Part shown: one piece after another, positions 2,188 to 63,703 of the stretch
Layout: each line of letters begins with the position of its first letter
Position numbering within the stretch: the first letter of the stretch is position 1
Program-made: the position numbers and the translations under genes
Assembly: GCF_004001325.1 (NCBI RefSeq)
Contig: NZ_AP018722.1
Coordinates: 1,674,001-1,738,000, forward strand
From: Thiomicrorhabdus aquaedulcis
GTDB taxonomy: Bacteria; Pseudomonadota; Gammaproteobacteria; Thiomicrospirales; Thiomicrospiraceae
Length of the DNA stretch: 64,000 bases
Direction of reading: 5' to 3'
Notes under the pieces: generated by a model
The model's input: only the letters and a program-made list of their open reading frames with translations
Told to the model about the DNA's origin: nothing
The model's database searches: none

Positions 2188-3297
2188 TTAGCCTTGTGGC
2201 AAAAACGCACTCAAGGTTTTCATGCTATCAAACAACGCTTCTTCGCTGTCGGCTAACACAGTTATATGGCCTAGTTTACGCCCAGCGCGCTCAGCTTTGT
2301 CGTACAAATGCAACGACATGTTGGGCTGTTTAAGTACCTCGTGTACAGGACCAATTTGGCCAATAATATTGACCATCGCCGCCAAAGGTTGGCGTGGCGA
2401 GGTGTCGCCCAGCGGCAACCCGCAAATAGCGCGAACGTGGTTTTCAAACTGACTGGTGTTAGCGCCTTCAATAGTCCAGTGCCCCGAATTGTGAACGCGT
2501 GGCGCCATCTCGTTGGCCACCAAACCTTGAGCGGTTTCAAACAGTTCTAGGGTTAAAACACCCACGTGATCCAACTCGTCTAACAAACTTAACATGTATT
2601 GCTCGGCTTGTTTTTGCACCGCGTCGCTTACCTTGCGCGCCGGCGCGACGCTGTAACGCAAAATGCCTTGGTGATGCACGTTTTGCACCAACGGATAATA
2701 CACATGTTCGTTATGGGCGTTGCGCACTGCAATAATCGACAGCTCGCGCTGAAAATCCACAAAGCCTTCTAAAATTAATTCGCGTCCACCAATTTCTAAC
2801 CAGGCCTGGTCAACTTGCGTGGCATCACGCAACACAAACTGGCCTTTGCCATCATAACCTTCGGTGGTGGTTTTAAGCACGGCGGGCAAACCAATTTTAT
2901 CCACCGCTTGGTGCAAGCTTTCTAAAGAATCCACCAACTGATAGGGGGCGCACGGGATATTTAACTGCGTAAACAAGCCTTTTTCACGCCCTCGATGTTG
3001 CGACATGTACAGCGATTTTTCGCCCGGATACACGGGCGTAGTTTGCGCGATTTGGCGCACCAGTTCTACGTCGGTGTTTTCGCTTTCAAAGGTAATTACA
3101 TCGGCAAACTCAACCAACTTAGCCAGCGATTGGGTGTCGTCCGACTGCACATGCATGTGCCCTAACAACGCCGAAGGCTCGTCGTGATTAAGTCCATAAA
3201 AGCCAAACTTTTGCCCTAATGGATAACCAGCAATGGCCAACATGCGACCTAACTGGCCCGCGCCTAATACGCCAATGCGCTTGGTAATCGGGGTCAT
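2188..3297 (-). CDS. purK: N5-carboxyaminoimidazole ribonucleotide synthase
   Basis: ATP-dependent carboxylation of AIR to N5-CAIR in purine synthesis, cytoplasmic. The N-terminal RIGVLGAGQLGRML and the ATP-grasp core (TTEGYDGKGQ, NEMAPRVHNSGHWTIEGA) are typical PurK. The length, 369 residues, fits the family. The ATG at 3297 is preceded by GGAG with six-base spacing; an in-frame TTG twelve bases upstream overlaps that site and is less likely. It lies 79 bases downstream of purE, whose product uses N5-CAIR, with a terminator-like palindrome between them. Codons near 2800-2809 are written as CCAGGCCTGG and encode QAW. Confidence 0.95.
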   Translation of the reverse strand: MTPITKRIGVLGAGQLGRMLAIAGYPLGQKFGFYGLNHDEPSALLGHMHVQSDDTQSLAKLVEFADVITFESENTDVELVRQIAQTTPVYPGEKSLYMSQHRGREKGLFTQLNIPCAPYQLVDSLESLHQAVDKIGLPAVLKTTTEGYDGKGQFVLRDATQVDQAWLEIGGRELILEGFVDFQRELSIIAVRNAHNEHVYYPLVQNVHHQGILRYSVAPARKVSDAVQKQAEQYMLSLLDELDHVGVLTLELFETAQGLVANEMAPRVHNSGHWTIEGANTSQFENHVRAICGLPLGDTSPRQPLAAMVNIIGQIGPVHEVLKQPNMSLHLYDKAERAGRKLGHITVLADSEEALFDSMKTLSAFLPQG

Positions 3298-3311
3298 GGT
3301 TTTCTCCAAAT

Positions 3312-3344
3312 AAAAAAACCGTGACCAGGCCTGGTCACGGTTTT
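3312..3344 (-). terminator. 30-bp perfect palindrome with T-run between purE and purK
   Basis: The bases 3315-3344 form a perfect palindrome built on CCAGGCCTGG, with AAAACCGTG/CACGGTTTT arms. Read on the minus strand it is followed by seven T, the form of an intrinsic terminator or attenuator between purE and purK. Whether it stops, weakens or merely separates transcription is not shown. Confidence 0.65.
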
Positions 3345-3376
3345 ATGATTGTAATGATTCATGTAACGCAATCGTT

Positions 3377-3886
3377 TTAAACTCTTGGGTCGGGATTTTC
3401 CAACACACTTTGGGTTTGTTGCGCTCTAAACTCTTTAACCGCTTGGCGCACTGATGGGTGATTAATGCCAATAATTTGCGCGGCTAAAATACCCGCGTTT
3501 TTAGCACCCGCCTCACCAATCGCCAAAGTGCCCACGGGCACGCCACCAGGCATTTGCACAATAGACAATAACGAGTCTTGTCCGCTTAACGCCCGCGATT
3601 GTACTGGCACACCCAACACAGGCACCACGGTTTTGGCCGCGACCATACCCGGTAAATGTGCCGCGCCACCCGCGCCGGCAATAATTACTTGCAGGCCACG
3701 GCTTTCGGCACTTTGGGCGTAGTCAAACATTAAATCGGGGGTGCGGTGCGCCGACACCACCTGCACTTCGTGCGGCACGCCAAACAGCGTTAACATTTCT
3801 ACCGCGTGTTGCATGGTGGGCCAGTCGGATTTTGAACCCATTATGACTCCGACCAAAGGCTGATCGGCAATTGCGCTGTTTGACAT
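3377..3886 (-). CDS. purE: N5-carboxyaminoimidazole ribonucleotide mutase, class I
   Basis: Converts N5-CAIR to CAIR in purine synthesis; class I PurE works as an octamer. The diagnostic motifs [13 protein letters not shown] near the N-terminus, SAHRTP, and the [13 protein letters not shown] phosphate/active-site loop are all present. The length of 169 residues is normal. I prefer the ATG at 3886 to a TTG twelve bases upstream because it is the standard codon and family members start close to the SDWP motif. It is the first gene of a purE-purK pair. Confidence 0.94.
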
Positions 3887-3929
3887 AGTTACACTCAATA
3901 ATAAAACGGTTAATGCTAAGAGACCCTTA

Positions 3930-3958
3930 CACTGTTACGCTCTTACAAAATAACAGTG
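3930..3958. promoter_or_regulatory. inverted repeat upstream of purE
   Basis: CACTGTTA at 3930-3937 and TAACAGTG at 3951-3958 are exact inverted repeats separated by 13 bases, between the purE start and the end of the c-di-GMP gene. They could be an operator for purE or a weak hairpin. It does not look like the E. coli PurR box. Confidence 0.35.
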
Positions 3959-4026
3959 CACGCCACCAAAGGGGTAAAATTATACCTACTTCCTTTAAAA
4001 CCGCAAACCTTAAACGTCCCAAGCCA

Positions 4027-7583: not shown

Positions 7584-7607
7584 CATGTGACCAGGCCTGG
7601 TCACATG
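7584..7607. repeat. 24-bp CCAGGCCTGG palindrome between metK and metF
   Basis: A perfect 24-bp palindrome with CATGTGA arms around the CCAGGCCTGG core. It could form a hairpin in the metK transcript, but there is no T-run, so it is not a standard terminator. Confidence 0.8.
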
Positions 7608-8507: not shown

Positions 8508-9299
8508 ATGCGCATTCCCCGTTTGTATTTACCTGGCGATTATCGCCAGGCCAAACCTCAAGACACCCTTGAGCTCAACAAAGAGCAAGCCCATTACGCC
8601 TTAACGGTATTACGTCTTAAAAGCGGCCATCCGGTTCAGGCGTTTGACGGTTTAGGCCATGCGGCCAATGGGGTGTTAAACCACACCAGCCGGCGCAGCG
8701 CCGAGTTTGTTATAGAACACATTACCCCCTGCGATAACGAATCACCGCTTAACATCACTTTAGTGCAAAGCATTTCGCGTGGCGAACGCATGGACATCAG
8801 CATTCAAAAATCGGTCGAGCTGGGCGTAAGCGCCATTCAACCAATTTTTACCGAACGCTGTGAAGTCAGGCTGGACGACGACAAGCTCGAAAAACGCCGC
8901 GCCCAGTGGCAAGCCATGGTGATTAACGCCTGCGAGCAAAGCGGTCGTTGCGTTGTGCCAACGGTGTTGCCTATTCAAACCTACCAGGCCTGGTTAAACG
9001 AGTTTAACCAAGCGCAGACCATGTTACTTGGCTCAAATGCATTGCCCTGCATGGGTTTGGTGCTTGACCCTTACGCTCAAAATCGTTTGCACACCCTAAC
9101 GCCGCCCACTGTTTTGAATGACGCCAGCCAACCAATTTATGTGTTAATTGGCCCCGAAGGCGGCTTAACCGACGATGAAGTGCATTTGGCTGTGCAAAAT
9201 GGCTTTAACGCAATTCAACTTGGACCACGTATTCTTAGAACCGAAACCGCCGGCCCCGCTATATTGGCTATTTTACAAGCACTGTGGGGTGATTTTTAA
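8508..9299 (+). CDS. rsmE: 16S rRNA (uracil-1498-N3)-methyltransferase
   Basis: SAM-dependent SPOUT-class methyltransferase acting on 16S rRNA U1498. The C-terminal trefoil-knot motifs IGPEGGLTDDEV and LGPRILRTETAGPAIL are characteristic, and the N-terminal PUA-like part begins RIPRLYLPGDY. The length of 263 residues is slightly above the usual 240. It follows metF by 12 bases and is probably co-transcribed. An internal CCAGGCCTGG (8984-8993) encodes YQAWLN. Confidence 0.93.
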   Translation: MRIPRLYLPGDYRQAKPQDTLELNKEQAHYALTVLRLKSGHPVQAFDGLGHAANGVLNHTSRRSAEFVIEHITPCDNESPLNITLVQSISRGERMDISIQKSVELGVSAIQPIFTERCEVRLDDDKLEKRRAQWQAMVINACEQSGRCVVPTVLPIQTYQAWLNEFNQAQTMLLGSNALPCMGLVLDPYAQNRLHTLTPPTVLNDASQPIYVLIGPEGGLTDDEVHLAVQNGFNAIQLGPRILRTETAGPAILAILQALWGDF

Positions 9300-14408: not shown

Positions 14409-16097
14409 ATGAACCAATCCATTCAGCAAAACGAAACCCAATTTTTAAACGACCTAGAGAAAAAACTTTGGACTAGTGCCAACAAACTCTTGCCCTCGTT
14501 AGATGCCTCGCAATACAAACACGTTATGTTAGGTTTAGTGTTTTTAAAATACGTTTCCGACTCATTTGGCATTCGCCGTGATGAACTCACCGCCCAATTT
14601 AAAAACCCAGAACATCCCTACTATTTAGACCCCGCTGATTTTGGTGGCGAAGATAGCCCAGAATACCAAGCTGAAATTAACACCGAACTTGAAGAACGCG
14701 ATTACTATGCCGAAGCCAATGTGTTTTGGGTGCCCGTTCAATCACGTTGGGAGTTTTTACAAAACCAAAACAAAGTCGTTATTACGGGTGAAATTGAAAT
14801 TCCAGACGGAAAGAACACCAAAAAAATCCGCTCGGTTGGTCAACTGATTGATAACGCCCTTGATGCCATTGAAGTCGACAACCCAAAACTGAAAGGCGTT
14901 TTAAACAAGCGCTACACTCAACTGCAAATAGACCAAGCCAAATTGGGTGAGCTGATTGACCTCATCGCCACCATTCCGTTTGTACATAACTCTCTAAGCA
15001 GTAAAGACATTCTTGGCCATGTGTACGAATACTTTTTAGGCCAATTTGCCCTTGCCGAAGGTAAAAAAGGCGGCCAGTTCTACACGCCAAAATCCATCGT
15101 CAGTTTAATTGTGCAAATGATGGAGCCCTTCAAAGGACGTGTTTACGACCCTGCAATGGGTTCGGGTGGATTCTTTGTGCAGTCCGAACACTTTATTCGT
15201 GAACACCAAGGCCGCATTGGCGATGTGTCTATTTATGGTCAAGAATACAACCACACCACTTGGCAACTCGCCGCCATGAATATGGTGATTCGTGGCATCG
15301 ACTTTAACTTTGGCAACGAACCCGCCAGCAGCTACACCAACGACCAACACCCAGATTTACGTGCCGACTTTGTCATGGCCAACCCACCATTTAACATGAA
15401 AGAATGGGACACAGGGGTGGACGACAACGACCCTCGCTGGGTTTACGGCAAACCGCCTTCTGGCAACGCCAACTTTGCGTGGCTGCAACACATGCTCTAC
15501 CACACCGCACCCAATGGCAGTGTCGGTTTACTCCTCGCCAACGGTTCTATGAGTTCCAACACCAGCGGCGAAGGCGATATTCGTAAAGCCTTAATAGAAG
15601 CCGACCTCATCGAATGCATGGTCGCCCTACCTGGTCAACTCTTTACCAACACGCAAATTCCCGCCTGCATTTGGTTTTTAAGCAAAAACAAAAAAGCCAG
15701 AACCGCCGCCAGTGGCCGCCAATTGCGCGACAGAACAGGCGAAGTGTTGTTTATAGACGCCCGTAACCTCGGTTATATGAAAGACCGAGTCTTGCGCGAC
15801 TTTACCCAAGAAGACCTAACCTTAATTACCGACCTATTTCACAATTGGCAAACCGAAAAAGACTTCCAAAATCAACCAGGCCTGGTCAATTCTGCCACGT
15901 TGGAAGATATTAAAAAGCATGATTATGTTCTCACCCCTGGGCGTTATGTCGGCGCACAAGAACAAGAAGACGACGGCGAACCCTTTGCTGAAAAAATGGC
16001 CCGACTCACCGCACAACTCAAAACACAGTTTGAAGAAAGCGACCGATTAGAAGTTGAGATTAAAAAGAACTTGGCGGGGTTGGGTTATGAGTTTTAA
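14409..16097 (+). CDS. hsdM: type I restriction-modification system, DNA methyltransferase subunit
   Basis: The M subunit that methylates adenine at the site chosen by HsdS. An N-terminal helical HsdM_N domain (about 10-150) precedes the N6-adenine methyltransferase core with the SAM motif DPAMGSGGFF at 247-256 and the catalytic NPPF at 325-328. Length 562 residues is normal. It opens the RM island after a 128-base gap that must hold the promoter; the ribosome binding site is weak. Its end overlaps the hsdS start by 11 bases, suggesting translational coupling. A CCAGGCCTGG copy at 15876-15885 encodes QPGLV. Confidence 0.96.
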   Translation: MNQSIQQNETQFLNDLEKKLWTSANKLLPSLDASQYKHVMLGLVFLKYVSDSFGIRRDELTAQFKNPEHPYYLDPADFGGEDSPEYQAEINTELEERDYYAEANVFWVPVQSRWEFLQNQNKVVITGEIEIPDGKNTKKIRSVGQLIDNALDAIEVDNPKLKGVLNKRYTQLQIDQAKLGELIDLIATIPFVHNSLSSKDILGHVYEYFLGQFALAEGKKGGQFYTPKSIVSLIVQMMEPFKGRVYDPAMGSGGFFVQSEHFIREHQGRIGDVSIYGQEYNHTTWQLAAMNMVIRGIDFNFGNEPASSYTNDQHPDLRADFVMANPPFNMKEWDTGVDDNDPRWVYGKPPSGNANFAWLQHMLYHTAPNGSVGLLLANGSMSSNTSGEGDIRKALIEADLIECMVALPGQLFTNTQIPACIWFLSKNKKARTAASGRQLRDRTGEVLFIDARNLGYMKDRVLRDFTQEDLTLITDLFHNWQTEKDFQNQPGLVNSATLEDIKKHDYVLTPGRYVGAQEQEDDGEPFAEKMARLTAQLKTQFEESDRLEVEIKKNLAGLGYEF

Positions 16098-17720: not shown

Positions 17721-17728
17721 GTTTAATT

Positions 17729-19413: not shown

Positions 19414-19425
19414 ACCAGGCCTGGT
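19414..19425. repeat. CCAGGCCTGG palindrome between rhuM and hsdR
   Basis: ACCAGGCCTGGT, 12-bp palindrome, in the 87-base gap before hsdR. No T-run follows. Confidence 0.75.
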
Positions 19426-22642: not shown

Positions 22643-23773
22643 ATGAGAAAAAATATCGCAATTTTTTTGACCCAAAGATGGCCGGCTTTAGCGGCTTTTA
22701 CGCGTGGATTTACGCGTGCAAAGCTCTCCTTAGCTTGGCTTGGGTTTATCAATCTATTCTTGCTCATCGGCTGCAGTCAAACAGACGAGCCATCCAGTCA
22801 AGCAAGCACACCAACCCAAGCGCAAATACTGGTCTTTGGCACGCACGTTAATATTGTGGTTTACCATCCCGATCCGCTACTGGCGCAGGCTGCGATTAGG
22901 GAGGTCGAGCAGACGTTTGCGCAGTTTCATATTGACTGGCATGCTTGGGAAAAAGGCGGCGTGGTGGGTAAAATAAACAGTGCCATAGCCCAACAATCGC
23001 CTATCGACGTGGCCGATTCGGTGAAGAGTTTTATTCTAAAATCGCAACAACTTACCCGTCAAAGTAATGGTTTATTTGACCCGGGCATTGGCCAACTTAT
23101 CGCACTCTGGGGCTTTCACAGCGAACACTGGCAAGGCCCGCCACCGCCACAAAGTAAGATAGATCAATGGCTTAAAGACCGCCCGTCTATTTTAGACCTA
23201 ACGTTTAACGGCCAAACGCTCACCAGTCGCAACCCCAATGTACAACTCGACTTTGGCGGCAACGCCAAAGGTTTGGCCATTGACATCGCCCTTAACACCT
23301 TGCAATCGGCCGGTATACAAAACGCCTTGGTGAGCATTGGTGGCGACATGAAAGTGATCGGTCACAAGCCCAAATCCGCCTCAAACGCGCAAACCCTAGT
23401 TGACCAGGCCTGGTCAATTGGCATTCAAAACCCCAGTCAACCCAATCAAGTCGTGGCATCGCTCAATCTATATTCCAACGAAAGTGTGGTCACCTCGGGC
23501 ACCTATCAACGCTATTTTGAATGGCAAGGCCAACGCTATTCGCACATCATTAACCCTAACACCGGTTACCCAGCCAACGGTTTTGCGTCGGTAACCGTCA
23601 TTCACCCTGATGCTACCACCGCCGATGCGGCCGCCACCGCACTGCTCATTGCCGGCCCCGAACAGTGGCAAACCATTGCCCAAAAAATGGGCGTTAGCGA
23701 TGTTTTTTGCATTACACAAAACGGTGAGTTTTTACAAACAAAAGGCATGGAAAAACGCCTGAAACTGTTATAA
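22643..23773 (+). CDS. apbE: FAD:protein FMN transferase, lipoprotein
   Basis: Transfers FMN from FAD to a threonine of target proteins such as Nqr or Rnf subunits in the periplasm. A signal peptide ends in the lipobox LLIGC with the lipidated cysteine at residue 44. FGTHVNIVV, LDFGGNAKGLAID, VSIGGDMKVIG and HIINPNTGYPA with the following TTADAAATAL match ApbE. Length is 376 residues. It follows hsdR by 22 bases but belongs functionally to the housekeeping side; no clear Shine-Dalgarno. A TTGACCAGGCCTGGTCAA copy at 23400-23417 encodes DQAWS. Confidence 0.93.
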   Translation: MRKNIAIFLTQRWPALAAFTRGFTRAKLSLAWLGFINLFLLIGCSQTDEPSSQASTPTQAQILVFGTHVNIVVYHPDPLLAQAAIREVEQTFAQFHIDWHAWEKGGVVGKINSAIAQQSPIDVADSVKSFILKSQQLTRQSNGLFDPGIGQLIALWGFHSEHWQGPPPPQSKIDQWLKDRPSILDLTFNGQTLTSRNPNVQLDFGGNAKGLAIDIALNTLQSAGIQNALVSIGGDMKVIGHKPKSASNAQTLVDQAWSIGIQNPSQPNQVVASLNLYSNESVVTSGTYQRYFEWQGQRYSHIINPNTGYPANGFASVTVIHPDATTADAAATALLIAGPEQWQTIAQKMGVSDVFCITQNGEFLQTKGMEKRLKLL

Positions 23774-26422: not shown

Positions 26423-27702
26423 GACTGGTCATTAAAAACGGGCGCATTATTGACCCCAGCCAAAACCTAGACAAAATCACTCACCTGTACGTAAGCCGTG
26501 GGCGCATTGCCGGAATAGGCGAAAACCCACCCGAAGGATTTAGCGCCGATCAAGAAGTCGATGCCACCGGCAAATGGGTGTTACCAGGCCTGGTTGATTT
26601 GCAAGCGCGTCTGGGCGAACCGGGCAGTCAATACGTCGGCGACATCGCCTCAGAAACCTTGGCGGCTGTGGCCGGTGGCATTACCAGCATCTGCTTTCCA
26701 CCCGACACCTCGCCGGTAAACGATTCGCAAGCGGTAACCGAACTGATTCAACGTCGTGCCCGCCAAGCGGCCACCGCGTTTGTCATGCCCATAGGCGCGC
26801 TTACGCAAGAACTTAAAGGCGAACGCTTAAGCGCCATTTATTCGCTTAAACAAGCCGGTTGCGTGGCGTTAAGCCAAGCCAACACCCCCATTCAAAACCC
26901 GTTGACCCTAAAAAATGCCCTTGAATACGCCGCCACCCACGACATTGTGGTGATGTTGCGCAGTGAAAGTCGCCAACTAAAAAACAACGGCGTGGCGCAT
27001 GCCGGTGCGGTCAGCTCACGCTTAGGCTTACCGGCGATTCCACCGTCGGCCGAGACCATTGCGTTGGCGCGTGATTTAATTTTGGTGGAAGAAGCCGGCA
27101 TTAAAGCGCACTTTTCGCAACTGTCGTGTGCGCGCTCGGTTGAGATGATTGCGCAGGCCAAACAACGTGGTTTACCGGTCACCTGTGACGTCGCCATTCA
27201 CCAACTGCATTTAAGCGAAATGGATGTGATGGGCTTTAACAGCCTGTTTCACGTCTCGCCCCCGTTGCGCAGTTTGCGTGACCAAGCCGCGTTATTGGCC
27301 GGCTTAAAGTCCGGCGTGATTGACGCGGTGGTCAGCGACCACACGCCGCTGGGCAACGACGACAAATTACTGCCCTTTGGCGAAAGCAAACCCGGCATCA
27401 GCGGCCTTGAAACCCTGTTGCCGCTGTTGATGAAACTGGTGCAAGAAAACGAGCTTGATTTAATGACAGCGATTCGTTGTGTAACGCAAAACCCGGCCAA
27501 TATTTTGGGCATTCAAACCGGTACTTTGTGCGAATCCAGCTCGGCCGACTTCTCGATTGTAAACCCCGAAGCCATTTGGACACTAAACCCAAAAACCATG
27601 GTCAGCGCCGGGCGCAATACGCCCTTTGCTGGTTGGGAGTTTATTGGCAAAGTCGAACAAACCTATTTTCAGGGTCGTCCAGTGTTTAGGGATTTTGTAT
27701 AA
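26419..27702 (+). CDS. pyrC': dihydroorotase-like protein lacking metal ligands (PyrC'/PyrX)
   Basis: A 427-residue amidohydrolase-fold protein. Active dihydroorotases carry an HxH zinc site in the PGLVDxHxHxREPG motif; here it reads [14 protein letters not shown], so both histidines are gone and the enzyme should be inactive. In Pseudomonas such a non-catalytic homologue is needed to assemble aspartate carbamoyltransferase, and the four-base overlap with pyrB fits that. A true dihydroorotase must be encoded elsewhere. The conserved VLPGLVD codons at 26584-26593 are spelled with the CCAGGCCTGG palindrome. Confidence 0.92.
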
Positions 27703-37551: not shown

Positions 37552-37645
37552 TACCAGGCCTGGTCACTTTTTTACAACCTGATGGCAACTTATTCAATCT
37601 TACCAGGCCTGGTAATCTAAACCAGGCTTGACCAGGCCTGGTCAA
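37552..37645. repeat. cluster of three CCAGGCCTGG palindromes
   Basis: Cores at 37554, 37603 and 37632, growing from 12 to 16 to 18 bp of symmetry, plus a degenerate ACCAGGCTTG at 37621. They fill the gap between the cytochrome and proC; spacing is 49 and 29 bases. This is the densest intergenic group in the window. Confidence 0.85.
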
Positions 37646-41238: not shown

Positions 41239-43616
41239 ACACCGCAACGCCCAAATCCACGTTAAAAAACCCCACCCACGCTTATCAAATTGCCTTAATA
41301 GGCAGCCCAAATTGCGGCAAAACCACGCTGTTTAATCGCCTAACCGGCGCACAACAAACCACCGGCAATTGGCCTGGGGTTACGGTTGAACAAAAATCCG
41401 GCACGTTTGAACTCACGGTAGAACACCAACCCAAACGCTTTCATTTAATAGACTTACCGGGTGTGTACAGTTTAGAGCAATCGTCGCATTCGGGCTTAGA
41501 CGAGCAAGTCGCACGGCACTTTTTGCAACACCAACCCTGTGATTTAATTATGAATGTGGTCGACGCCACCAGTTTAGAGCGCCAACTGTTTTTAACCGCG
41601 CAGCTGCTTCACATGGGCTTGCCCGTGGTGGTGGTGCTTAATCGCATGGATTTACTCAATCAATGCAATCTGCACATCGACGTCGACAAGCTGGCCGCTC
41701 AATTAGGTTGCCCGGTTATTCCTATTTCGGCGTATTTTAATAAAGGCATTGACCAGCTTAAACAGCACCTACCCCAATACCTAAACATTCACCCAGGCCT
41801 GCATTTTGACCTGCCCGAAGCCTTGCACAACGCCGTACACGCCTTACGTGATTTGCAACAGCAAAATACTGAAAAAACCCATTTAACCAGGCCTGGTCAG
41901 TCTGATACACCAAGTAAAGCGGATGAATCGTGTTGGAAAAGCGTGCAGCAGTTAATGCACCCCGAGCAAGCACCCGCCGAGTTACGCACATTTTGTCAGC
42001 GCCAAAAGCAGGCGTTAGAAGCGCATTTTAACGAAGACTTGGCGCTGATTGCCGCCGACCTGTATTTTCAGTTTGCGCACGACGCCGCGCACGCCAGTCA
42101 AACGTTTACCGACCAATTTACCCGCAACACCACCGACCGCATCGACCGCTGGGCGTTGCACCCTTGGCTGGGTATGCCGCTGTTTTTAGGCGTCATGTAT
42201 CTGCTGTTTGCGCTGTCGATTGCCATTGGCAATACCTTTATTGACTTTTTTGACCAAAGTGCCGCCGCGTTGTTTGTAGACGGCCCTACCGCGCTATTGC
42301 AAAGCCTTAACGCACCCGATTGGCTTATTGCCTTTTTAGCCAATGGAATTGGCGGCGGCCTGCAAGTGGTCGCCACGTTTATTCCGGTGATTGGCGCGCT
42401 GTTTTTACTGCTGTCTATTTTAGAAGAGACCGGCTACATGCAACGCGCCGCACTCATTATGGACACCTTAATGCGCCGTTTGGGTTTATCGGGGCAAGCG
42501 TTTATTCCGCTGGTAGTGGGATTTGGTTGCAACATTCCGGCCGTATTGGCCACGCGCACCCTGCCCGACCAGCGCGACCGCATTACCACCATTATGATGA
42601 CACCGTTTATGTCGTGTTCGGCGCGCCTTACCGTGTACGTGCTGTTTGCCACCGCCTTTTTTACCGAGCACGCCGCACTCATGGTGTTTTCAATGTACGT
42701 GATTGGCCTGCTGGCCGCGGTATTAACCGCCCTGTTGCTCAAACACACCTTGCTGCCTGGGCAAGCCCCGCCGCTGTTAATGGAACTGCCCATTTACCAC
42801 AAACCCGCCGTACTGAATGTGCTGTTAAACACCCGCAACAAACTTAAAAGTTTTATTTTAGAAGCCGGCAAAATTATTGTCTTGGTGGTGTTGGCGTTAA
42901 ACTTTTTTAACAGCCTTGGCACCGATGGCACGTTTGGACACCAAAACCAAACCAGCTCGGTATTAAGCACCGTGGCGCGCGCCGCCACGCCTATAGTAGA
43001 ACCACTGGGCATTACCGAAGAAAATTGGCCGGCCACCGTAGGCTTAATCACCGGCTTATTAGCCAAAGAAGTGGTGGTAGGCTCGCTGGACGCGCTTTAT
43101 CAAAATACCGAAAAAAACACCGAGCAGAACCAATCTAACCAAATCGACCCGTCTTATCAACTCGGTGGTGCGCTGTTGGACGCATTGCAAACTATTCCAG
43201 ACAATGTAAGCAACATTATTGGCACGCTAACCGACCCACTGGGATTGCAGTCGCTCAACAGCACCCAAAGCCCCACTACACTGGCCGAGCAACAAGGCAT
43301 TGCACCGTCTACCATTCATAAAATGGCGGTGCATTTTGACGGCTACATTGGCGCTTACGCCTACTTGCTGTTGATTTTATTGTATTTTCCCTGCGTGGCC
43401 ACGTTTGGTGCTATAAAACAAGAGCTGGGTTGGCGCTGGGCGCTCACCAGCGGTGGCTGGAGTTTGTTATTAGGCTACAGCACCGCCGTAGGGTTTTACC
43501 AAGCCGCCACATTTAACCAACACCCAACCCAATCCACCGTTTGGCTGGGGCTAATTGCCATGGTGTTTATTAGCCTAACACTCATCCTTAAACACATAGG
43601 CAAGCGCGAACTTTAG
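41235..43616 (+). CDS. feoB: ferrous iron transporter FeoB
   Basis: The inner-membrane Fe(II) transporter, 793 residues. The N-terminal GTPase has G1 GSPNCGKTTLFN, G2/G3 NWPGVTVE and DLPGVYSL, and G4 NRMD, and is followed by a helical GDI region and about eight to ten membrane helices with the Gate motifs (LVVGFGCNIPAVLATRTL; FMSCSARLTVYVLFA). It has a long loop near 610-690. Translation is probably coupled to feoA. An internal AACCAGGCCTGGTCAG copy lies at 41885-41900. No Fur box was evident upstream. Confidence 0.95.
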   Translation: MNTATPKSTLKNPTHAYQIALIGSPNCGKTTLFNRLTGAQQTTGNWPGVTVEQKSGTFELTVEHQPKRFHLIDLPGVYSLEQSSHSGLDEQVARHFLQHQPCDLIMNVVDATSLERQLFLTAQLLHMGLPVVVVLNRMDLLNQCNLHIDVDKLAAQLGCPVIPISAYFNKGIDQLKQHLPQYLNIHPGLHFDLPEALHNAVHALRDLQQQNTEKTHLTRPGQSDTPSKADESCWKSVQQLMHPEQAPAELRTFCQRQKQALEAHFNEDLALIAADLYFQFAHDAAHASQTFTDQFTRNTTDRIDRWALHPWLGMPLFLGVMYLLFALSIAIGNTFIDFFDQSAAALFVDGPTALLQSLNAPDWLIAFLANGIGGGLQVVATFIPVIGALFLLLSILEETGYMQRAALIMDTLMRRLGLSGQAFIPLVVGFGCNIPAVLATRTLPDQRDRITTIMMTPFMSCSARLTVYVLFATAFFTEHAALMVFSMYVIGLLAAVLTALLLKHTLLPGQAPPLLMELPIYHKPAVLNVLLNTRNKLKSFILEAGKIIVLVVLALNFFNSLGTDGTFGHQNQTSSVLSTVARAATPIVEPLGITEENWPATVGLITGLLAKEVVVGSLDALYQNTEKNTEQNQSNQIDPSYQLGGALLDALQTIPDNVSNIIGTLTDPLGLQSLNSTQSPTTLAEQQGIAPSTIHKMAVHFDGYIGAYAYLLLILLYFPCVATFGAIKQELGWRWALTSGGWSLLLGYSTAVGFYQAATFNQHPTQSTVWLGLIAMVFISLTLILKHIGKREL

Positions 43617-50195: not shown

Positions 50196-50918
50196 TTAAT
50201 AAATTGCCAGCACGGTGTTTTTTAACCAGACCAATTCACCGTGAAAAAAATGGCTGGCTTTGCCACGCCAATACACGTCGGCCATCATCGTGTGGTTGTC
50301 GTTATGAGCGGTGTTGGCGCTCATAACCCAAGTTAAAATAGCCTGCGCATTCACCACTTCGTCTTGCCCGCCCTGAATCACCACCCAGGGTACGTCTTGC
50401 ACGTGCAATCCATTAAAATCATACAAGCCTACGGGTGGCGCTACGGTGCAGATGCCTTTTATAAACGGCTTATAATCGTTTAACCAGGCCTGGTTAAGTG
50501 CCTGCAAGGTAACGTAACTGCCAAACGAAAACCCCGCTAACACAATATGTTCGGCCTTAAAACGCTGACTTGCCCAACTTAAAACAGCCGCCAAATCGTC
50601 TTGTTCGCCCGCGCCATGATCGTGCAAGCCGCTACTTTGCCCCACGCCTCTAAAGTTGTAGGCGACGGTGATGTAACCCAAACTTAAAAATGCGCGTTCT
50701 AACGTAGTGATTACCTTATTATTCATAGTGCCGCCGTATAAAGGGTGCGGATGACTCAACACCACCAACTTAACCAGGCCTGGTGATGATGATATTTGTG
50801 CTGCCGCAGTAAACTCCAATGCATCGGCTTTAGGCTGTTTGCAACGCACTTCGATGGCACCGACCGCTCCGTTAATTAAGACCGTATTAATGCCGCTTAT
50901 TGTTTCTAAGTTTTTCAT
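50196..50918 (-). CDS. alpha/beta hydrolase
   Basis: A 240-residue serine hydrolase-like protein. LSHPHPLYGGTMNNKVI near residues 58-74, the nucleophile elbow LAGFSFGSYVTL near 133-144, and the C-terminal GKASHFFHGEL with a histidine make a triad plausible. It matches the COG2945-like hydrolase group. ATG at 50918 with GGAG six bases upstream. Two CCAGGCCTGG copies lie inside (50484, 50774) and one just upstream (50937). Substrate unknown. Confidence 0.88.
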   Translation of the reverse strand: MKNLETISGINTVLINGAVGAIEVRCKQPKADALEFTAAAQISSSPGLVKLVVLSHPHPLYGGTMNNKVITTLERAFLSLGYITVAYNFRGVGQSSGLHDHGAGEQDDLAAVLSWASQRFKAEHIVLAGFSFGSYVTLQALNQAWLNDYKPFIKGICTVAPPVGLYDFNGLHVQDVPWVVIQGGQDEVVNAQAILTWVMSANTAHNDNHTMMADVYWRGKASHFFHGELVWLKNTVLAIY

Positions 50919-50935
50919 TTGCCACTCCAAAGTTA

Positions 50936-50947
50936 ACCAGGCCTGGT
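50936..50947. repeat. CCAGGCCTGG palindrome in the hydrolase-pdxB divergent gap
   Basis: ACCAGGCCTGGT lies 18 bases upstream of the hydrolase start codon, within the shared upstream region of the two divergent genes. A regulatory role is possible but this copy is one of many. Confidence 0.75.
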
Positions 50948-51038: not shown

Positions 51039-52250
51039 ATGTCACATACAACGCCCCCCGTCACGCCCTCTACAAAAACCATCATCATCGACGACGCTGT
51101 GCCCTATGCGCAGGCCATGTTTGGACACTTGGGAAACGTGATTACCGTACCCGGCAAAGACATTACCGCGCACACCGTGCAAAACGCCGACGCGCTTATT
51201 GTGCGCTCGCGCACTCAAGTCAACGCCGAGCTGCTGCAACACAGCCAAGTGCAATTTGTGGGCAGTACCGTGGTGGGGTTAGACCACATTGACCAGGCCT
51301 GGTTAACGCAAAACAACATTACGTTTTACAGCGCCCAAGGCTGCAACGCCAATTCGGTGGCCGAATTTGTGATAAACGCGCTGTTTGAGTTAGCCCAACA
51401 CAACCACTTTGACCTTAGCCAAAAAACACTCGGGATTATAGGGGTAGGGCACGTGGGCAGTTTATTGCACCAAAAAGCCCAAGCTTTAGGCATGACTTGC
51501 TTGCTTAACGACCCGCCACGCGAAAGAGCACTAGAAAGATCACGTGAAAATTCACGAGAAAAAGCGCCATTAAACAGCGCGCAATCCACTCATCTTGAGT
51601 TTGTCGACCTTAACACCGCCTTAAAAGCCGACATTATAAGCTTTCACACCCCGCTCACCTTAAGGGGCGTGGACGCCACCTACCACTTGTTAAACCAACA
51701 ACGTCTGGCGCACATAAATCCACAACAAATTATTGTTAACGCCGCACGCGGCGGCATTATTGACGAAACTGCCTGGGTCAACACCCCCACGCAAGCCAAT
51801 ATTATAGACTGCTGGGAAAACGAACCCCATATAAATCCCGCACTCTACCAAACCGCCTACTTGGCCACGCCGCACATTGCTGGCCACTCGTTTGAAGCCA
51901 AACTAGCCGGCAGCACCATGGTATACAACGCCCTGTGCCAAGCCTGGAACATTGCCCCACAAACCCACTGGCAAACTCATTTACCCCCTGCCCCTGCCGT
52001 AATTCACCCCAAAACCACTCCATCGCAAACGGTGCAAAGCGTGGTGCAACAGGTGTTAAGTGCCACACATAACGTGCAACACGACGACCAAGCCATACGT
52101 AAGAACAATATAACCGACACTTATAACGCTTACGAAACCTATCGCCGCCACTACCCCGTACACCACGAATGGGTCAAACAACGCTTTACCACCACCGGCA
52201 ACCAACAAGCCGACAACCTATTGACTTTACTAGGGTTTACCAAACTATAA
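51039..52250 (+). CDS. pdxB: 4-phosphoerythronate dehydrogenase
   Basis: Oxidises 4-phosphoerythronate in the pyridoxal phosphate pathway. D-2-hydroxyacid dehydrogenase fold: FVGSTVVGLDHID near 77-89, GIIGVGHVGSLLHQ near 140-153, NAARGGIIDE, and the catalytic histidine in TPHIAGHSFEAK, the PdxB-specific form. The C-terminal dimerisation domain is present. At 403 residues it is slightly long because of inserts such as ERALERSRENSREKA near 176-190. ATG at 51039 is chosen; an in-frame upstream start is unconserved. The CCAGGCCTGG at 51293 encodes DQAWL. Confidence 0.9.
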   Translation: MSHTTPPVTPSTKTIIIDDAVPYAQAMFGHLGNVITVPGKDITAHTVQNADALIVRSRTQVNAELLQHSQVQFVGSTVVGLDHIDQAWLTQNNITFYSAQGCNANSVAEFVINALFELAQHNHFDLSQKTLGIIGVGHVGSLLHQKAQALGMTCLLNDPPRERALERSRENSREKAPLNSAQSTHLEFVDLNTALKADIISFHTPLTLRGVDATYHLLNQQRLAHINPQQIIVNAARGGIIDETAWVNTPTQANIIDCWENEPHINPALYQTAYLATPHIAGHSFEAKLAGSTMVYNALCQAWNIAPQTHWQTHLPPAPAVIHPKTTPSQTVQSVVQQVLSATHNVQHDDQAIRKNNITDTYNAYETYRRHYPVHHEWVKQRFTTTGNQQADNLLTLLGFTKL

Positions 52251-53010: not shown

Positions 53011-53032
53011 CTTTAACCAGGCCTGGTTAAAG
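53011..53032. repeat. 22-bp CCAGGCCTGG palindrome after the DUF302 gene
   Basis: Starts two bases after the stop codon and is identical over 22 bp to the copy at 27732-27753, with CTTTAA/TTAAAG arms. Confidence 0.85.
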
Positions 53033-53121: not shown

Positions 53122-53361
53122 ATACCTAATATTTATACCCTACATATTAACCCTTACTTAAAAAATGCGTATAATCGCCCGAAAAACCAATCTTATGGGC
53201 GTTAAGCATTAGTAATGTCTAATATAAGAAATTAATCGTATTAATCAGTCATTAAATTTATTTGATTATCCAAACAAATAAAATTAATGCATAGTGGCAA
53301 CCGAATCAAAGACAGACCACCGTCTGTTACAAACAACAACAACAAAGTGAGTCAAAACAGC

Positions 53362-55596: not shown

Positions 55597-55698
55597 CCAT
55601 GCAAAAACCCATCGTCATGCCGTGCCACGACACGGCATCTTTACCGCGCGCCTTAGATTGCGGGTCAAGCCCGCAATGACGCATCTGCAAACCAACCA
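55597..55698. repeat. two-hairpin intergenic repeat, copy 2
   Basis: Direct copy of 54793-54905, on the other side of the toxin-antitoxin pair, preceded by GGGTCAG at 55578. Its right end runs into a CCAGGCCTGG palindrome at 55696-55705. The remaining bases to 55864 show no gene. Confidence 0.85.
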
Positions 55699-55864
55699 GG
55701 CCTGGCATCTCCTGCGGCTTTAAAATAGTCTGTAAGCGCAAGGTTCAACCATTTTCAGGCCTCTTTTGACGCTTTAACCGCCTTAAACATCTTTTTTTTA
55801 ACCCGAGCCTTTTTTGTTTTGGGCTTTTTGTGCATACTAGGCAAAAAATAAGGGGCTTAAAAGC

Positions 55865-56719
55865 ATGTCAAACATTTTAATTGTGGGTTGTGGCGACATT
55901 GGTTGCCAGTTAGGAACTCAATTAACCGCTCAAGGCCATAAAGTATTTGGTCTACGTCGCAACATTGCGGCCTTGCCCGATTGCATTACGCCCATAGGTG
56001 CCGACTTAGCGCAACCTTTGCCCGCCCTGCCGCAAGACATCGACTATGTGTTTTACATGACCTCAGCCGGCAAATACAAAGACCCTGCGTACTATCAAGC
56101 CTATGTGCAAGGCTTACGCAACACCTTAAACGCTTTAAAACTGCAAACCACGCCCATTAAACGCCTGTTTTTTATCTCTAGCACCTCGGTATTTGGTCAA
56201 AGCGATGGCCAAAAAGTCACCGAAGCCAGCCCAACCGTTAGCAATAATTTTTCGACCAAACGTATTTTAGAAGGCGAAGAGTTGGCGTTAAGCAGTGATG
56301 TCGCGACCACCATTGTGCGTTTTGGCGGTATTTACGGCCCTGGCCGCACCCATTTAATTGAGTTGGTTAAACACGGCAAAGCCCATTGCATGGACGACGT
56401 GTGGAGCAACCGCATTCACTCGGCCGATTGCGTAGGCATGTTAATGCACCTAATGCAGTTAAACGAAACAGCCCCTGAGCAAGTAGAACCCCTTTACATT
56501 GGAGTAGACAACCTACCCACCCTGTCGTGTGACGTGTACAACTGGATTGCCGAACAACTCAGCGTACCCGAAGTGGAATACAACGAACCCACCGAAAACT
56601 CACGCGTTCAACGCAGCAACAAACGTTTGTCTAACGCCAAAATCCGCGCCACCGGCTACGAGTTTATATACCCCACCTACCAAGACGGCTACCAAGAAAT
56701 TTTGGAAGATTATTTGTGA
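55865..56719 (+). CDS. NAD-dependent epimerase/dehydratase family protein (YeeZ-like)
   Basis: An extended short-chain dehydrogenase of 284 residues. ILIVGCGDIGCQLGTQL at the N-terminus is the GxGxxG-type nucleotide site; FISSTSVFGQSDGQ and VRFGGIYGPGR follow. The usual YxxxK is not evident (NNFSTKRILEGEEL occupies that place), as in YeeZ-like proteins. Substrate unknown. It stands between repeat clusters. Confidence 0.85.
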   Translation: MSNILIVGCGDIGCQLGTQLTAQGHKVFGLRRNIAALPDCITPIGADLAQPLPALPQDIDYVFYMTSAGKYKDPAYYQAYVQGLRNTLNALKLQTTPIKRLFFISSTSVFGQSDGQKVTEASPTVSNNFSTKRILEGEELALSSDVATTIVRFGGIYGPGRTHLIELVKHGKAHCMDDVWSNRIHSADCVGMLMHLMQLNETAPEQVEPLYIGVDNLPTLSCDVYNWIAEQLSVPEVEYNEPTENSRVQRSNKRLSNAKIRATGYEFIYPTYQDGYQEILEDYL

Positions 56720-57631: not shown

Positions 57632-59911
57632 ATGCGAGCAATACCTGCTAAAACACTTTTTAACACCTTTTTAAAAACCTTTGTTTTAAGTTTTTGGGTG
57701 TGGATTCAACCAGGCCTGGTCAACGCCAGTGACGATTTATTAGAAGTGGATCAAGCGTTTGCACTGCAAACACCGGTCGTTCAAGACGGCAAAATTAGCG
57801 TTACCTGGGACATTGCGGACGACTACAAACTTTACAAAGACAAAATTTCGGTTACTGCCGACACACTGAGCTTAAGCGAACCGAGTTTTTCGGCCAGTAA
57901 AGCGTATGACGATCCGCTATTTGGTAAAACCGAGGTATTTTCTAAGCGTGCCATTATTACTCTGCCTTACCAAAGTACAGCCTCACAAACAGCCAACTTA
58001 ACCATTAAATACCAAGGCTGTGCCGACAAAATTGGCGTATGTTACCCACCGCAAACCCGCACTTTAAGTGTCACCATTCCGCCACAAGCGTTAAGCGTTG
58101 CCTCTGCCGCTCCATCGTCTAATGGATTTTCGTCGTTAGGCGATTTAAACAAATTGCTTACCGGCAACAGCAAACAAGCCGAGCTATTGGACGCCGATGC
58201 GGCATTTGCGTTTACCACGCAAATTAACAGCAACGGTCAATTGGTCGCCACTTGGAACATTGCACCCGATTACCATCTTTATAAAGACAAAATTAAATTT
58301 AGCGTTATACAAGGCAACGCCACATTGGGCGATGTAGAACTGCCCAAGGCCACCCAAATTGACGACCCATTATTTGGCAAAACCGAGGTATTTCATGGTC
58401 AAACCAGCGTTATTTTGCCCATCAGCGCATTAACCGACAAGGCCACCATACAAGTTGAGTTTCAGGGATGTTCTGCCCTGTTAGGCGTGTGTTACCCGCC
58501 CATGAAAAAACCAGTGGATGTATTGGCCGGGCAAATCAATACACAAACTACCTCTACGCCTGCGACTTCTACAGCCAAAAGTGATATTAATTTTTCGGAA
58601 GGTTTGTCTGAAACCGACCAAATCGCCGACACCCTAAAAAACAGCAGTGTGTGGATTGTAATCGCCACCTTCTTTATTTTTGGTTTACTGCTGGCGTTTA
58701 CGCCGTGCGTGTTTCCAATGATTCCTATTTTATCCAGCATTATCGTCGGTCAGGGCGACCAGTTGACTACGCGCCGCGCCTTTACCATGTCGTTAGTGTA
58801 CGTGCTGGCCATGTCGGTGACTTACACGGTGGCGGGCGTATTGGCCGGTATTTTTGGTGAAAACTTGCAAGCGGCGTTTCAAAACCCATGGATTATCGGT
58901 AGTTTTGCAGTCATCTTCTTACTGCTGGCGCTGTCGATGTTTGGCTTTTACGAACTGCAACTGCCCAGCCGCTTACAAACCAAACTGGCTAATTTATCCA
59001 ACAAACAGCAAGGTGGCACCTTAACCGGCGTGGCCATTATGGGCTTTTTATCGGCCTTAATTGTGGGCCCTTGCGTTGCCCCACCTTTGGCGGGTGCGCT
59101 GATTTACATTGGTCAAACCGGTGATGCCCTTCTGGGTGGCGTGGCCTTATTTGCCATGAGTATGGGGATGGGCTTGCCTCTATTATTACTGGGCACATCG
59201 GCTGGCAAATTGCTACCGCGCGCGGGGGCATGGATGGATGGCGTTAAAGCGGTGTTTGGGGTGATGCTGATTGGTATTGCCATATGGATGCTTGAACGCG
59301 TGGTTCCGGCCGAAGTAACGCTGTTAAGCTGGGCACTGTTATTGATGTTTTCGGCCATTTACTTGGGCGCGTTTGAATCAACGCAGGCCAAGTCAGGCTG
59401 GTTTAAACTGTTTAAAGGCCTAGGATTGGCGCTGTTTATATACGGTACGCTTATTTTAGTGGGCTTATTGGGTGGCTCTAAAGAGATGATGCAGCCGCTT
59501 AAAGTGTTTCAAGGCGGCGCGGGCTCAGCGGGTGTAACGCAACAAAGCCAACACTTAAGCTTTAAAACCATTAAAACCGAACAAGAGCTTGACGCCGAAC
59601 TGGCCAAGGGTCAACCCGTAATGTTCGACTTTTACGCCGACTGGTGCGTAAGCTGCAAAGAGATGGAAAAATTCACCTTCTCAGACGCCCAGGTGCAAAA
59701 TGCTTTAGCGGGTGTAACCCTGCTTAAAGCCGACGTCACCGCAAACGATGCCGCCGACAAAGCCTTAATGAAACGCTTTGGCTTAATAGGCCCACCGGCC
59801 ATTTTGTTTTTTAACGCACAAGGTCAAGAACAAAAAGCGCAACGAGTAATAGGCTTTAAAAAAGCCGACGCCTTTTGGTTAATGTGCAAACCGCGTTACC
59901 GCAATAAATAA
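57632..59911 (+). CDS. dsbD: thiol:disulfide interchange protein DsbD with duplicated N-terminal domain
   Basis: Carries electrons from cytoplasmic thioredoxin to periplasmic disulfide isomerases and cytochrome c assembly. After a signal peptide, two nDsbD domains lie in tandem (about 35-160 and 185-310), each with its own cysteine pair (GCADKIGVCYPP and GCSALLGVCYPP). The eight-helix membrane part has FTPCVFPMIPIL and VGPCVAPPLAGAL, and the C-terminal thioredoxin domain has DWCVSCKEME. The final residues WLMCKPRYRNK look wrong; one extra T in 59873-59876 would give the usual ADAFLVNVQTALPQ ending at 59907. ATG at 57632 with GAGAG upstream. Confidence 0.92.
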   Translation: MRAIPAKTLFNTFLKTFVLSFWVWIQPGLVNASDDLLEVDQAFALQTPVVQDGKISVTWDIADDYKLYKDKISVTADTLSLSEPSFSASKAYDDPLFGKTEVFSKRAIITLPYQSTASQTANLTIKYQGCADKIGVCYPPQTRTLSVTIPPQALSVASAAPSSNGFSSLGDLNKLLTGNSKQAELLDADAAFAFTTQINSNGQLVATWNIAPDYHLYKDKIKFSVIQGNATLGDVELPKATQIDDPLFGKTEVFHGQTSVILPISALTDKATIQVEFQGCSALLGVCYPPMKKPVDVLAGQINTQTTSTPATSTAKSDINFSEGLSETDQIADTLKNSSVWIVIATFFIFGLLLAFTPCVFPMIPILSSIIVGQGDQLTTRRAFTMSLVYVLAMSVTYTVAGVLAGIFGENLQAAFQNPWIIGSFAVIFLLLALSMFGFYELQLPSRLQTKLANLSNKQQGGTLTGVAIMGFLSALIVGPCVAPPLAGALIYIGQTGDALLGGVALFAMSMGMGLPLLLLGTSAGKLLPRAGAWMDGVKAVFGVMLIGIAIWMLERVVPAEVTLLSWALLLMFSAIYLGAFESTQAKSGWFKLFKGLGLALFIYGTLILVGLLGGSKEMMQPLKVFQGGAGSAGVTQQSQHLSFKTIKTEQELDAELAKGQPVMFDFYADWCVSCKEMEKFTFSDAQVQNALAGVTLLKADVTANDAADKALMKRFGLIGPPAILFFNAQGQEQKAQRVIGFKKADAFWLMCKPRYRNK

Positions 59912-62583: not shown

Positions 62584-62593
62584 CGAGGTTTAC

Positions 62594-62644
62594 AAAAGGC
62601 ACGAACCGGCAAGGTGCATTACTTTGCTGGTTCGTGCCTTTTTT
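62594..62644 (+). terminator. intrinsic terminator after accC
   Basis: AAAAGGCACGAACC pairs with GGTTCGTGCCTTTT, with GCAAG/CTTTGC strengthening the upper stem, followed by a T-run. Confidence 0.9.
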
Positions 62645-62719
62645 CATTTTAAGTTTTTAGCTTTTGCATTTTTAGCTTTTGCATTTTTGGCTTTTAAATT
62701 TATAACTTTTAAGTTTAGA
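62645..62719. repeat. AT-rich degenerate short tandem repeats
   Basis: Imperfect repeats of TTTTTAGCTTTTGCA and TTTTAAGTTT fill the space between the accC terminator and prmA. No feature is recognised in them. Confidence 0.6.
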
Positions 62720-62756
62720 TGTTTAGCGTTAACTTACCAAAATCAAAGGAACCATG

Positions 62757-63631
62757 ATGGCTTGGATACAAATTAACACCACCGTAGAAGAAGCATTGGC
62801 CGAACCCTTATCCGATGCGTTTATGGACGCGCAAGCCGCATCGGTGACCTTTGAAGACGCACTGGATCAACCCATTTTTGAACCCGAATTGGGCACTACG
62901 CCTATTTGGGCCAGCACCAAAGTCATTGCACTGTACGATGCACAAGTTGACGCCAATGCCGTGATTGCCTTGCTAACGCAAAGCCTGCCGCACATTGCCG
63001 CCAGTAGCTACAAAGTAGAACAACTTGAAGACAAAGATTGGATTCGTGAATGGATGGATCAATTTCACCCCATGCTGTTTGGCGACCGCTTGTGGATTGT
63101 GCCCAGTTGGAAAACCCCACCGCAACCCGATGCCGTAAACCTAATGCTTGACCCAGGCATGGCGTTTGGTACGGGCACGCACCCAACCACCGCGCTGTGT
63201 TTAACCTGGTTAGATCAGCACGCACCGCTTAATCAAACGGTCATTGATTACGGCTGTGGCTCGGGAATTTTAGCGCTCGCGGCTAAAAAACTCGGGGCAG
63301 CCAGTGTAAGCGGTACCGACATTGACCCGCAAGCGATTACCGCCAGCCAAGAAAACGCCCGCCGCAATCAAGAAAACCTAGCCTTTGCACTGGTTAAAGA
63401 CTTTGACAGCCCTCCGGTCGATTTGCTGATGGCCAATATATTAGCCGGCCCACTCAAAGAGTTAGCCCCTGAATTTTGCGCTTGTTAAAACCCGGTGCCA
63501 CCCTGGTGCTGTCGGGTTTATTGGCCAACCAAGCTCCTGAGCTCATGGCGCATTACCAAACATTAGGCTTTGAACTCAACACCTTGCAAACTCAAGAAGA
63601 GTGGGGATTGTTGGCCGGTAAAAAACTGTAA
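62757..63631 (+). CDS. prmA: ribosomal protein L11 methyltransferase, one apparent frameshift
   Basis: SAM-dependent methylation of ribosomal protein L11. MAWIQINTTV at the N-terminus, DPGMAFGTGTHPTT, VIDYGCGSGILALAA, TDIDPQA, and LLMANILAGPL are the family motifs. The frame stops at 63488 after EFCAC; one extra T in 63474-63477 gives EFLRLLKPGATLVLSGLL and a stop at 63629-63631, 291 residues, close to the E. coli length. A sequencing deletion is likely. The first of two ATG codons (62754) is the alternative start. Confidence 0.92.
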
Positions 63632-63681
63632 CATTACGGCACATCTATTAGTTTGATAACCGCTTAATAATGTTAAAACAC

Positions 63682-63703
63682 CTTTGACCAGGCCTGGTCA
63701 AAG
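63682..63703. repeat. 22-bp CCAGGCCTGG palindrome between prmA and dusB
   Basis: Perfect 22-bp palindrome with CTTTGA/TCAAAG arms, the G version of the copies at 27732 and 53011. Confidence 0.85.

Follow-up and report, generated by a model that had tools for sequence, protein, structure and literature searches.

The stretch analysed here, hereafter the window, comprises 64,000 nucleotides of Thiomicrorhabdus aquaedulcis (contig NZ_AP018722.1, positions 1,674,001 to 1,738,000), a member of the Thiomicrospiraceae. It carries genes from purK near one end to prmA near the other, and inside and between these genes the palindrome CCAGGCCTGG recurs (Table 1). A preliminary description, made from the letters alone, had claimed 21 exact copies of this 10-mer in the window and a chance expectation far below that number. 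We found all 21 copies where they had been placed, and 100 dinucleotide shuffles of the window gave a mean of 0.04 copies and a maximum of 1. The proportion of guanine plus cytosine (GC) along the window is 41-52% per 4 kb.

The palindrome in the genome of T. aquaedulcis

The genome-wide count that the preliminary description had proposed as a check returned 856 copies of CCAGGCCTGG in 2,537,035 bases on two contigs, compared with about 3 expected when an order-3 Markov estimate is scaled up, and the motif is thus not restricted to the window. The reversed pattern, which served as a control, has 0 copies in the whole genome. For finer counts we used a 464 kb sample of the genome holding the window (G000 in our family set of 37 genomes, G000-G036), consisting of 20 stretches of 20 kb plus the window. 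This sample contains 147 copies, far from the Markov expectation of 0.55 (order 3) or 1.1 (order 4). Its most frequent 10-mer is CCAGGCCTGG, tied with the overlapping shift ACCAGGCCTG, and its most frequent 12-mer is ACCAGGCCTGGT with 117 copies. The core CAGGCCTG is strict, in that every single change inside it was seen just 0-4 times in the sample, while the outermost base of the 10-mer is more tolerant (GCAGGCCTGG 27, ACAGGCCTGG 9 and TCAGGCCTGG 1). With the motif copies counted in, CCAGG occurs 378 times against 359 expected and CCTGG 378 times against 365. Since neither pentamer is in excess as such, the signal lies in the whole word, and we rejected a Dcm/Vsr-driven enrichment of CCWGG as its source. 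A second dispersed word, the non-palindromic CTTTGCACGA, was seen 18 times in the sample, as was its complement, and is possibly the end of an insertion element.

Two parts of the genome are poor in the motif. The second contig (96.8 kb; L109-L113) carries Rep3, ParA/ParB-type, RecT, EcoRI-type methylase and GmrSD-like genes and TraN of an F-type type IV secretion system; because of the Rep3, ParA/ParB-type and TraN genes we regard it as a probable conjugative plasmid. It has 5 motif copies, compared with about 34 expected at the chromosomal density (851 in 2,440 kb). On the first contig, a gap of about 29 kb (L027 and its neighbours, about 2242126-2271589) has no CCAGGCCTGG and a single CAGGCCTG, located in L027. 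This locus encodes the RuBisCO large subunit, CsoS2, a piece of an Sbt-type bicarbonate transporter and a Mutator-family transposase, its GC content is 0.40 compared with 0.46, and the motif-poor region looks like a late-arriving carboxysome region. The scarcity of the word on the plasmid-like contig and in the carboxysome gap fits DNA that joined the genome late.

Table 1. Copies of CCAGGCCTGG in the window, in order of position (ORF, open reading frame; + and -, strand)
Site	Core	Placement	Remarks
2800..2809		inside purK ORF (2188-3309 -)	QAW codons; the same codons carry the core in most aligned motif-bearing relatives, not in G002
3315..3344	3325-3334	purE-purK spacer	core centred in a 30-bp perfect dyad; terminator-like
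7584..7607	start 7591	metK-metF spacer, or the opening codons of metF if called long	24-bp dyad
8984..8993		inside RsmE-type RNA methyltransferase ORF (8508-9299 +)	TYQAWL
15876..15885		inside hsdM-like ORF (14409-16097 +)	
19415..19424		between RhuM-family ORF and hsdR-like ORF	
23404..23413		inside ApbE-family ORF	18-bp dyad; length-variable protein stretch
26584..26593		inside amidohydrolase ORF (26419-27702)	PGLVDL codons
27732..27753	27738-27747	spacer	22-bp dyad
37554..37563		204-bp spacer upstream of proC-like ORF	first of three
37603..37612		same 204-bp spacer	second of three
37632..37641		same 204-bp spacer	third of three; 18-bp dyad
41887..41896		inside feoB ORF	
50484..50493		inside alpha/beta-hydrolase ORF	18-bp dyad
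50774..50783		inside the same alpha/beta-hydrolase ORF as 50484	
50937..50946		divergent spacer (50930-51018)	
51293..51302		inside 2-hydroxyacid dehydrogenase family ORF (51018-52250 +)	
53011..53032	53017-53026	just past the stop of DUF302 ORF	22-bp dyad
55696..55705		outside listed ORFs (between 53287-54699 and 55865-56719)	sole window copy without outer T
57710..57719		inside dsbD ORF	
63682..63703	63688-63697	downstream of prmA ORF	22-bp dyad

The window also holds, at 14409-22620, a set of type I restriction genes (hsdM, hsdS-like, the RhuM-family ORF and hsdR) with partly lower GC content.

Placement, flanks and origin of the sites

About half of the copies had been said to lie in genes, and in different reading frames. 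In the window, 11 of 21 lie inside ORFs of at least 150 amino acids, a tally that leaves out two nested ORFs and in which the copy at 7591 counts as coding solely with the early GTG start of metF. In the sample, a simple ORF and codon-usage predictor places 78 of 147 copies inside genes, where three frames are in use, read as QAW (42), PGL (26) and RPG (10). The remaining 69 lie outside genes although the sample is 86% coding, so that sites are about 5-fold denser between genes, and the density of the 8-mer core in spacers relative to coding DNA is 3.7 in T. aquaedulcis and 2.5-7.4 across six sets of motif-bearing genomes. In the metK-metF spacer, 12 of the 18 palindrome-bearing loci compared, that of T. 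aquaedulcis included, have the palindrome.

The wider consensus given earlier, T(R)A-CCAGGCCTGG-T(Y)A, proved about right, with A at -1 in 134 and T at -3 in 112 of the 147 copies, and further out from the 10-mer there are weak A/T patches. When numbered from CAGGCCTG, the flanks are symmetrical, A-rich at -8 to -6 and T-rich on the opposite side, and the A/T tracts stand 10-12 bp from the dyad, which is about one helical turn. They are present at coding and spacer sites alike and are therefore more than terminator stems; they are weak in T. aquaedulcis, and none were seen in G035 or in 11 sites of G002. Spacers contain perfect dyads of up to 30 bp (3325 in the window), and in T. aquaedulcis the dyad extends at least 4 bp past the core in 25 of 74 spacer sites compared with 11 of 120 coding sites. 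The conserved block measures about 16-26 bp, and conservation ends about 10 bp outside the core. A perfect dyad flanked by A/T tracts at one turn's distance, located on the chromosome and rare on the plasmid, would suit an operator bound by an abundant dimeric protein of the nucleoid or of chromosome organisation, a possibility that we weigh below against the words of the relatives.

Terminator-like dyads of up to 30 bp at some spacer copies could also be expected of a mobile repeat, similar to repetitive extragenic palindromes and their associated tyrosine transposases (REP/RAYT) or to another palindromic element, that is copied around the genome. Against this stand the narrow limits of the conserved block and the location of roughly half of the copies inside genes, and orthologue alignments speak against it as well. 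Over coding sites, the alignment is free of gaps up to two residues from the site in 101 of 119 orthologue pairs and gapped in 18; this count drops the self hit L295 and sets aside two queries, window_7591, in fact a spacer, with 10 of 21 pairs gapped, and window_23404, a length-variable stretch with 18 of 18 gapped. In the amidohydrolase of ORF 26419-27702, 12 of 13 aligned relatives share PGLVDL, the exception being strain SC-1 with PGLIDL. Of these relatives, six (L029, L034, L036, L049, L055 and L367) spell PGLVDL as CCA GGC CTG GT(N), while five palindrome-less relatives (L032, L039, L040, L042 and L050) use other synonymous codons; the word is also missing at this site in two motif-bearing relatives, T. 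arctica (L051) and SC-1 (L044).

The RsmE alignment covers 17 of 34 loci, some others having been inspected in a separate locus comparison. Nine loci read TYQAWL or a near variant, and their records carry the names of three genera, Thiomicrorhabdus, Thiomicrospira and Hydrogenovibrio, with further cases in wider comparisons, and other residues fill these columns in motif-less relatives. The site is absent from the motif-bearing G002, G008, G025 and SC-1. RsmE of T. cannonii reads TYPAWL, and the changed codon creates that species' own core on the other strand. In purK, the core spells QAW in T. cannonii too, and motif-less relatives have, for example, GAG GCC TGG, AAG GCC TGG or CAG GCG TGG. 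Taken together, the alignments indicate that base substitutions create the sites, and at one of them the substitutions are all synonymous. They carry no signature of insertion, and we rejected a mobile element, which we consider extremely improbable. The earlier view that the word is selected or propagated as DNA is borne out by its genome-wide occurrence, its use of three reading frames and the synonymous-only difference between relatives at one site.

Words and absences across the Thiomicrospiraceae

MetF of the window is 71-87% identical to that of genomes titled Thiomicrorhabdus, Hydrogenovibrio and Thiomicrospira and of related metagenome-assembled genomes, and the next group reaches at most 60%. 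Strain names in the family set were inferred for G005 (zzn3), G013 (T. marina), G014 (T. heinhorstiae), G018 (ZW0627), G020 (T. cannonii), G025 (T. chilensis), G026 (6S3-12) and G036 (WB1); Hydrogenovibrio JE_KL2 stands outside the set. A count in related genera, likewise proposed earlier, gave 236-1173 copies of CAGGCCTG in 18 of the 37 genomes and 3-74 in the other 19. Several genomes carry another word in its place. G023, which is low in CAGGCCTG, has 1025 copies of ACCGGCCGGT, compared with 0-20 in the other genomes of the same search. In T. cannonii we found AACAGGCCGG 337 times forward and 322 times reverse (659), compared with totals of 2-29 in 19 other genomes; this word is non-palindromic (consensus AAACTCAACAGGCCGGG), and G004, a close sister, has the same word, with 3 copies in the 15.6 kb seen. 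JE_KL2 carries CCAGGTTGGG, 195 times forward and 205 times reverse (400) compared with 0-6 in 19 others, which is also non-palindromic (consensus AAAATCTRCCAGGTTGGGG). Within about 81 kb of JE_KL2 there are 17 copies of CCAGGTTGG, including three inverted pairs, one of them in the metK-metF spacer, and the T. cannonii word too sometimes stands as inverted pairs. Both one-sided words retain one half-site of the palindrome, made up of the A-tract, a few bases and CAGG, with the other half altered, and both are balanced between strands. The base beside the core also differs between species, being C in T. aquaedulcis (85%), G in G008 (62%), C or G in G035 and a mixture of A, C and G in G005, G018 and G025, while the GGCC centre is constant in every palindromic dialect. 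By these counts, the family appears to use four or more different words, along with several sub-dialects.

Sixteen genomes are without a known word, namely the 19 low in CAGGCCTG minus G023, G020 and likely G004. In a de novo k-mer survey, no comparable dispersed word stood out in 12 of these 16 (10-101 kb each), of which G012, G028 and G034, at 22 kb or less, offer too little to judge; the survey leaves out G001, G022 and G029, and for G032 (11.6 kb) a run of N dominated the listing. We rejected the idea that the loss clade uses CGGCAATC as its word, given that its excess is about 2.5-fold in three of that clade's genomes, without flanks, and mild elsewhere too. G017 (L135-L137) has many runs of 8-10 G, with AGGGGGGGG in 20 places of 44 kb, possibly slippage-prone tracts or an assembly effect. 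In G014 (L116-L119), AGACAAGAC occurs 22 times in 80 kb, an excess that vanishes after binning places by 300 bases and therefore reflects a local tandem or protein repeat. Viruses had no iterated motif in an IMG/VR scan, in which a 14-base pattern was present in 41 stretches with one palindromic place each and at most two per contig.

We placed the words on a tree of MetK, MetF and RsmE pieces with 36 tips, two of them outgroups. The CCAGGCCTGG form is found in G033, SC-1, H. halophilus, WB1 and nine Thiomicrorhabdus-type tips. The edge-base variants G005, G008, G018 and G025 form one clade with T. cannonii and G004 (support 100). The motif-less G011, G013, G014, G019, G024, G026 and G031 form another (support 94), within which G023 is nested; G001, G012 and G017 make up a further motif-less clade (support 100), and G003 stands apart from both. 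The palindrome is likely ancestral in the family, support being weak (30-56) at several deep nodes and at the root.

These differences between relatives bear on three intracellular explanations. The operator proposed above sits poorly with the non-palindromic dialects, with the wholesale replacement of the word within a genus and with its repeated absence, about half of the family being without the palindrome. Switches of this kind should come at a high cost where hundreds of sites serve one protein, and two of the relatives' words keep just one half-site, which makes a dimeric nucleoid protein an unlikely cause. A mechanism like that suggested by the highly iterated palindrome 1 (HIP1) of cyanobacteria, in which an orphan DNA methyltransferase together with repair or restriction bias makes and keeps a palindrome, would account for the constant GGCC centre; passages of Elhai 2015 (PMC4390886) describe such palindromes together with methyltransferases in cyanobacteria, and a C5 methylase is present in T. 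aquaedulcis and six other motif-rich genomes (G002, G006-G009 and G030). However, the C5 methylase domain PF00145 is absent from ten motif-rich genomes that are 99-100% complete (G005, G015, G018, G021, G023, G025, G027, G033, G035 and G036), so that a C5 methyltransferase was rejected as universal partner. Given also the two non-palindromic dialects and the lack of a general CCWGG excess, we consider this mechanism, which might still work through m4C or m6A enzymes, quite unlikely. A recombination or segregation signal resembling Chi or the FtsK-orienting polar sequences (KOPS) would share the high chromosomal copy number, but the palindrome has no direction and the asymmetric dialects are near 1:1 between strands overall, which leaves such a signal very unlikely.

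A putative DNA-uptake sequence

We propose, with a probability of roughly two in three, that the palindrome is a DNA-uptake sequence of the Thiomicrospiraceae, comparable to the DNA uptake sequence (DUS) of the Neisseriaceae and the uptake signal sequence (USS) of the Pasteurellaceae and built up by uptake-biased recombination, a process that passages of PMC1939737 model as molecular drive. Uptake-biased recombination predicts such a word, one that is strict, is replaced wholesale by related words in single species, is balanced between strands where it is asymmetric, and crowds into permissive DNA but is rare in late-arriving DNA; passages of PMC3630211 record the same for the DUS. An intracellular site-specific function is disfavoured because hundreds of sites would have to switch and about half of the family is without the word. 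In the proposed mechanism, a surface DNA receptor of the competence or type IV pilus machinery would prefer DNA with the A-tract and CAGG half-site, and tagged fragments from kin would be taken up and recombined more often. Each new chance copy would spread and mutated copies would be overwritten, allowing the word to accumulate to hundreds of copies in permissive sequence such as spacers, terminator-like stems and tolerant codons. A shift in receptor specificity would let the genome drift to a new dialect, and with its loss the word would erode. The uptake preference, the receptor and the drive are the parts of this reading that we infer. The preliminary description had offered three kinds of role, and in view of the dialects an uptake or recombination tag is the best supported of them; a C5 methyltransferase partner is unsupported, and a dimeric nucleoid protein is weakened.

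The dialect pattern has the anatomy of DUS and USS, and not the one that a methylation site or an invariant dimer operator would show. For the DUS, passages of Frye et al. 2013 (PMC3630211) describe a core conserved across dialects, inverted pairs at terminators, permissive intergenic sites and some family members without obvious DUS. The Thiomicrospiraceae resemble this in having hundreds to thousands of copies, dialects with a conserved core and members without the word, as well as inverted pairs and permissive intergenic locations, termination by the pairs being putative here. They differ in that the main dialects are palindromic, the word is another one and the bearers are free-living sulfur oxidisers; the DUS receptor in Neisseria is ComP. 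For the USS, parts of PMC12616744 report a strict core with an AT-rich flank, two dialects and a minor pilin proposed as receptor. Strict core, AT-rich flank and dialects are shared, whereas the USS is non-palindromic and no counterpart of the PpdA/ComN type was identified in our partial survey of the Thiomicrospiraceae. HIP1, to which the preliminary description had likened the motif alongside uptake sequences, is according to passages of PMC4390886 a highly iterated palindrome of debated function accompanied by orphan methyltransferases. It shares the highly iterated palindrome, but the word studied here is not tied to C5 methylases, is denser between genes and has dialects that include non-palindromes. 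HIP1 is a weaker analogy than the uptake sequences because intergenic density is several-fold higher here and dialects replace each other.

Several observations weigh against an uptake sequence. Known DUS and USS, as passages of PMC1939737 present them, are not palindromes. The presence of a ComEC domain counts in favour, yet competence genes do not track the word: such a domain without inner stops was found in T. aquaedulcis and in 20 of 22 genus relatives searched, motif-bearing and motif-less alike, the misses being G004 and G006, which are many-contig drafts, and G001 having two fragments (G023 and later handles lie outside this search). Because ComEC is present whether or not a genome bears the motif, absence of the word reads as lost specificity rather than lost competence. 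No receptor was found in a partial survey of the prepilin cluster, in which no gene tracks the motif among the 12 genomes compared, and pilins of the FimT/GspH type (PF12019) gave three marginal matches in 37 genomes, all of them motif-less. We thus rejected FimT/GspH pilins, which gave no signal, as receptor, and likewise group 6 of the prepilin cluster, which is present in four word-bearing genomes but is a cysteine-rich non-pilin that three further word-bearing genomes do not have in their stretches. The CAGG core, common to all other words found, is CCGG in the word of G023. Finally, even spacing is sometimes expected of uptake sequences, and evenness is non-significant in both T. aquaedulcis (coefficient of variation, CV, 0.94) and the window (CV 0.93). 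Counts per 20 kb in T. aquaedulcis have a dispersion of 0.39 (P 0.01) without the empty stretch L027 and of 0.74 (P 0.22) with it. Sites are evenly spaced in H. halophilus (CV 0.72 compared with 0.99; 1 of 5000 simulations as low), and WB1 has one 83 kb hole among the listed places (CV 1.94). We therefore did not keep even spacing as a general signature, as it holds in H. halophilus and fails in T. aquaedulcis and the window.

The preliminary description knew of no earlier account of the motif, and none in this family is among the matches listed in open-licence PubMed Central papers, which does not prove absence from print. Neisseria and the Pasteurellaceae are mostly familiar as bacteria that live with animals. 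Passages of PMC3630211 describe transformation dependent on short uptake sequences as exclusive to Neisseria and to members of the Pasteurellaceae. We see an even chance for a broader, joint reading of the sequences, namely that the Thiomicrospiraceae join two other bacterial families in taking up DNA by its sequence, are the first to do so with palindromic words, and display a full evolutionary cycle. This cycle would run from an apparently old palindrome through drift of its edge bases to symmetry broken into one-sided words (T. cannonii and JE_KL2), and on to loss of the word from at least two clades and, inside a loss clade, a new palindrome of 1025 copies (G023). If true, there would be a third, environmental family, with many species and with apparent gain, loss and replacement on one tree. 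The word is carried by cultured vent and sediment strains, and three long-standing questions could then be put to the test, namely where uptake specificity comes from, by what route about a thousand sites in one genome are rewritten and whether species are isolated by their uptake words.

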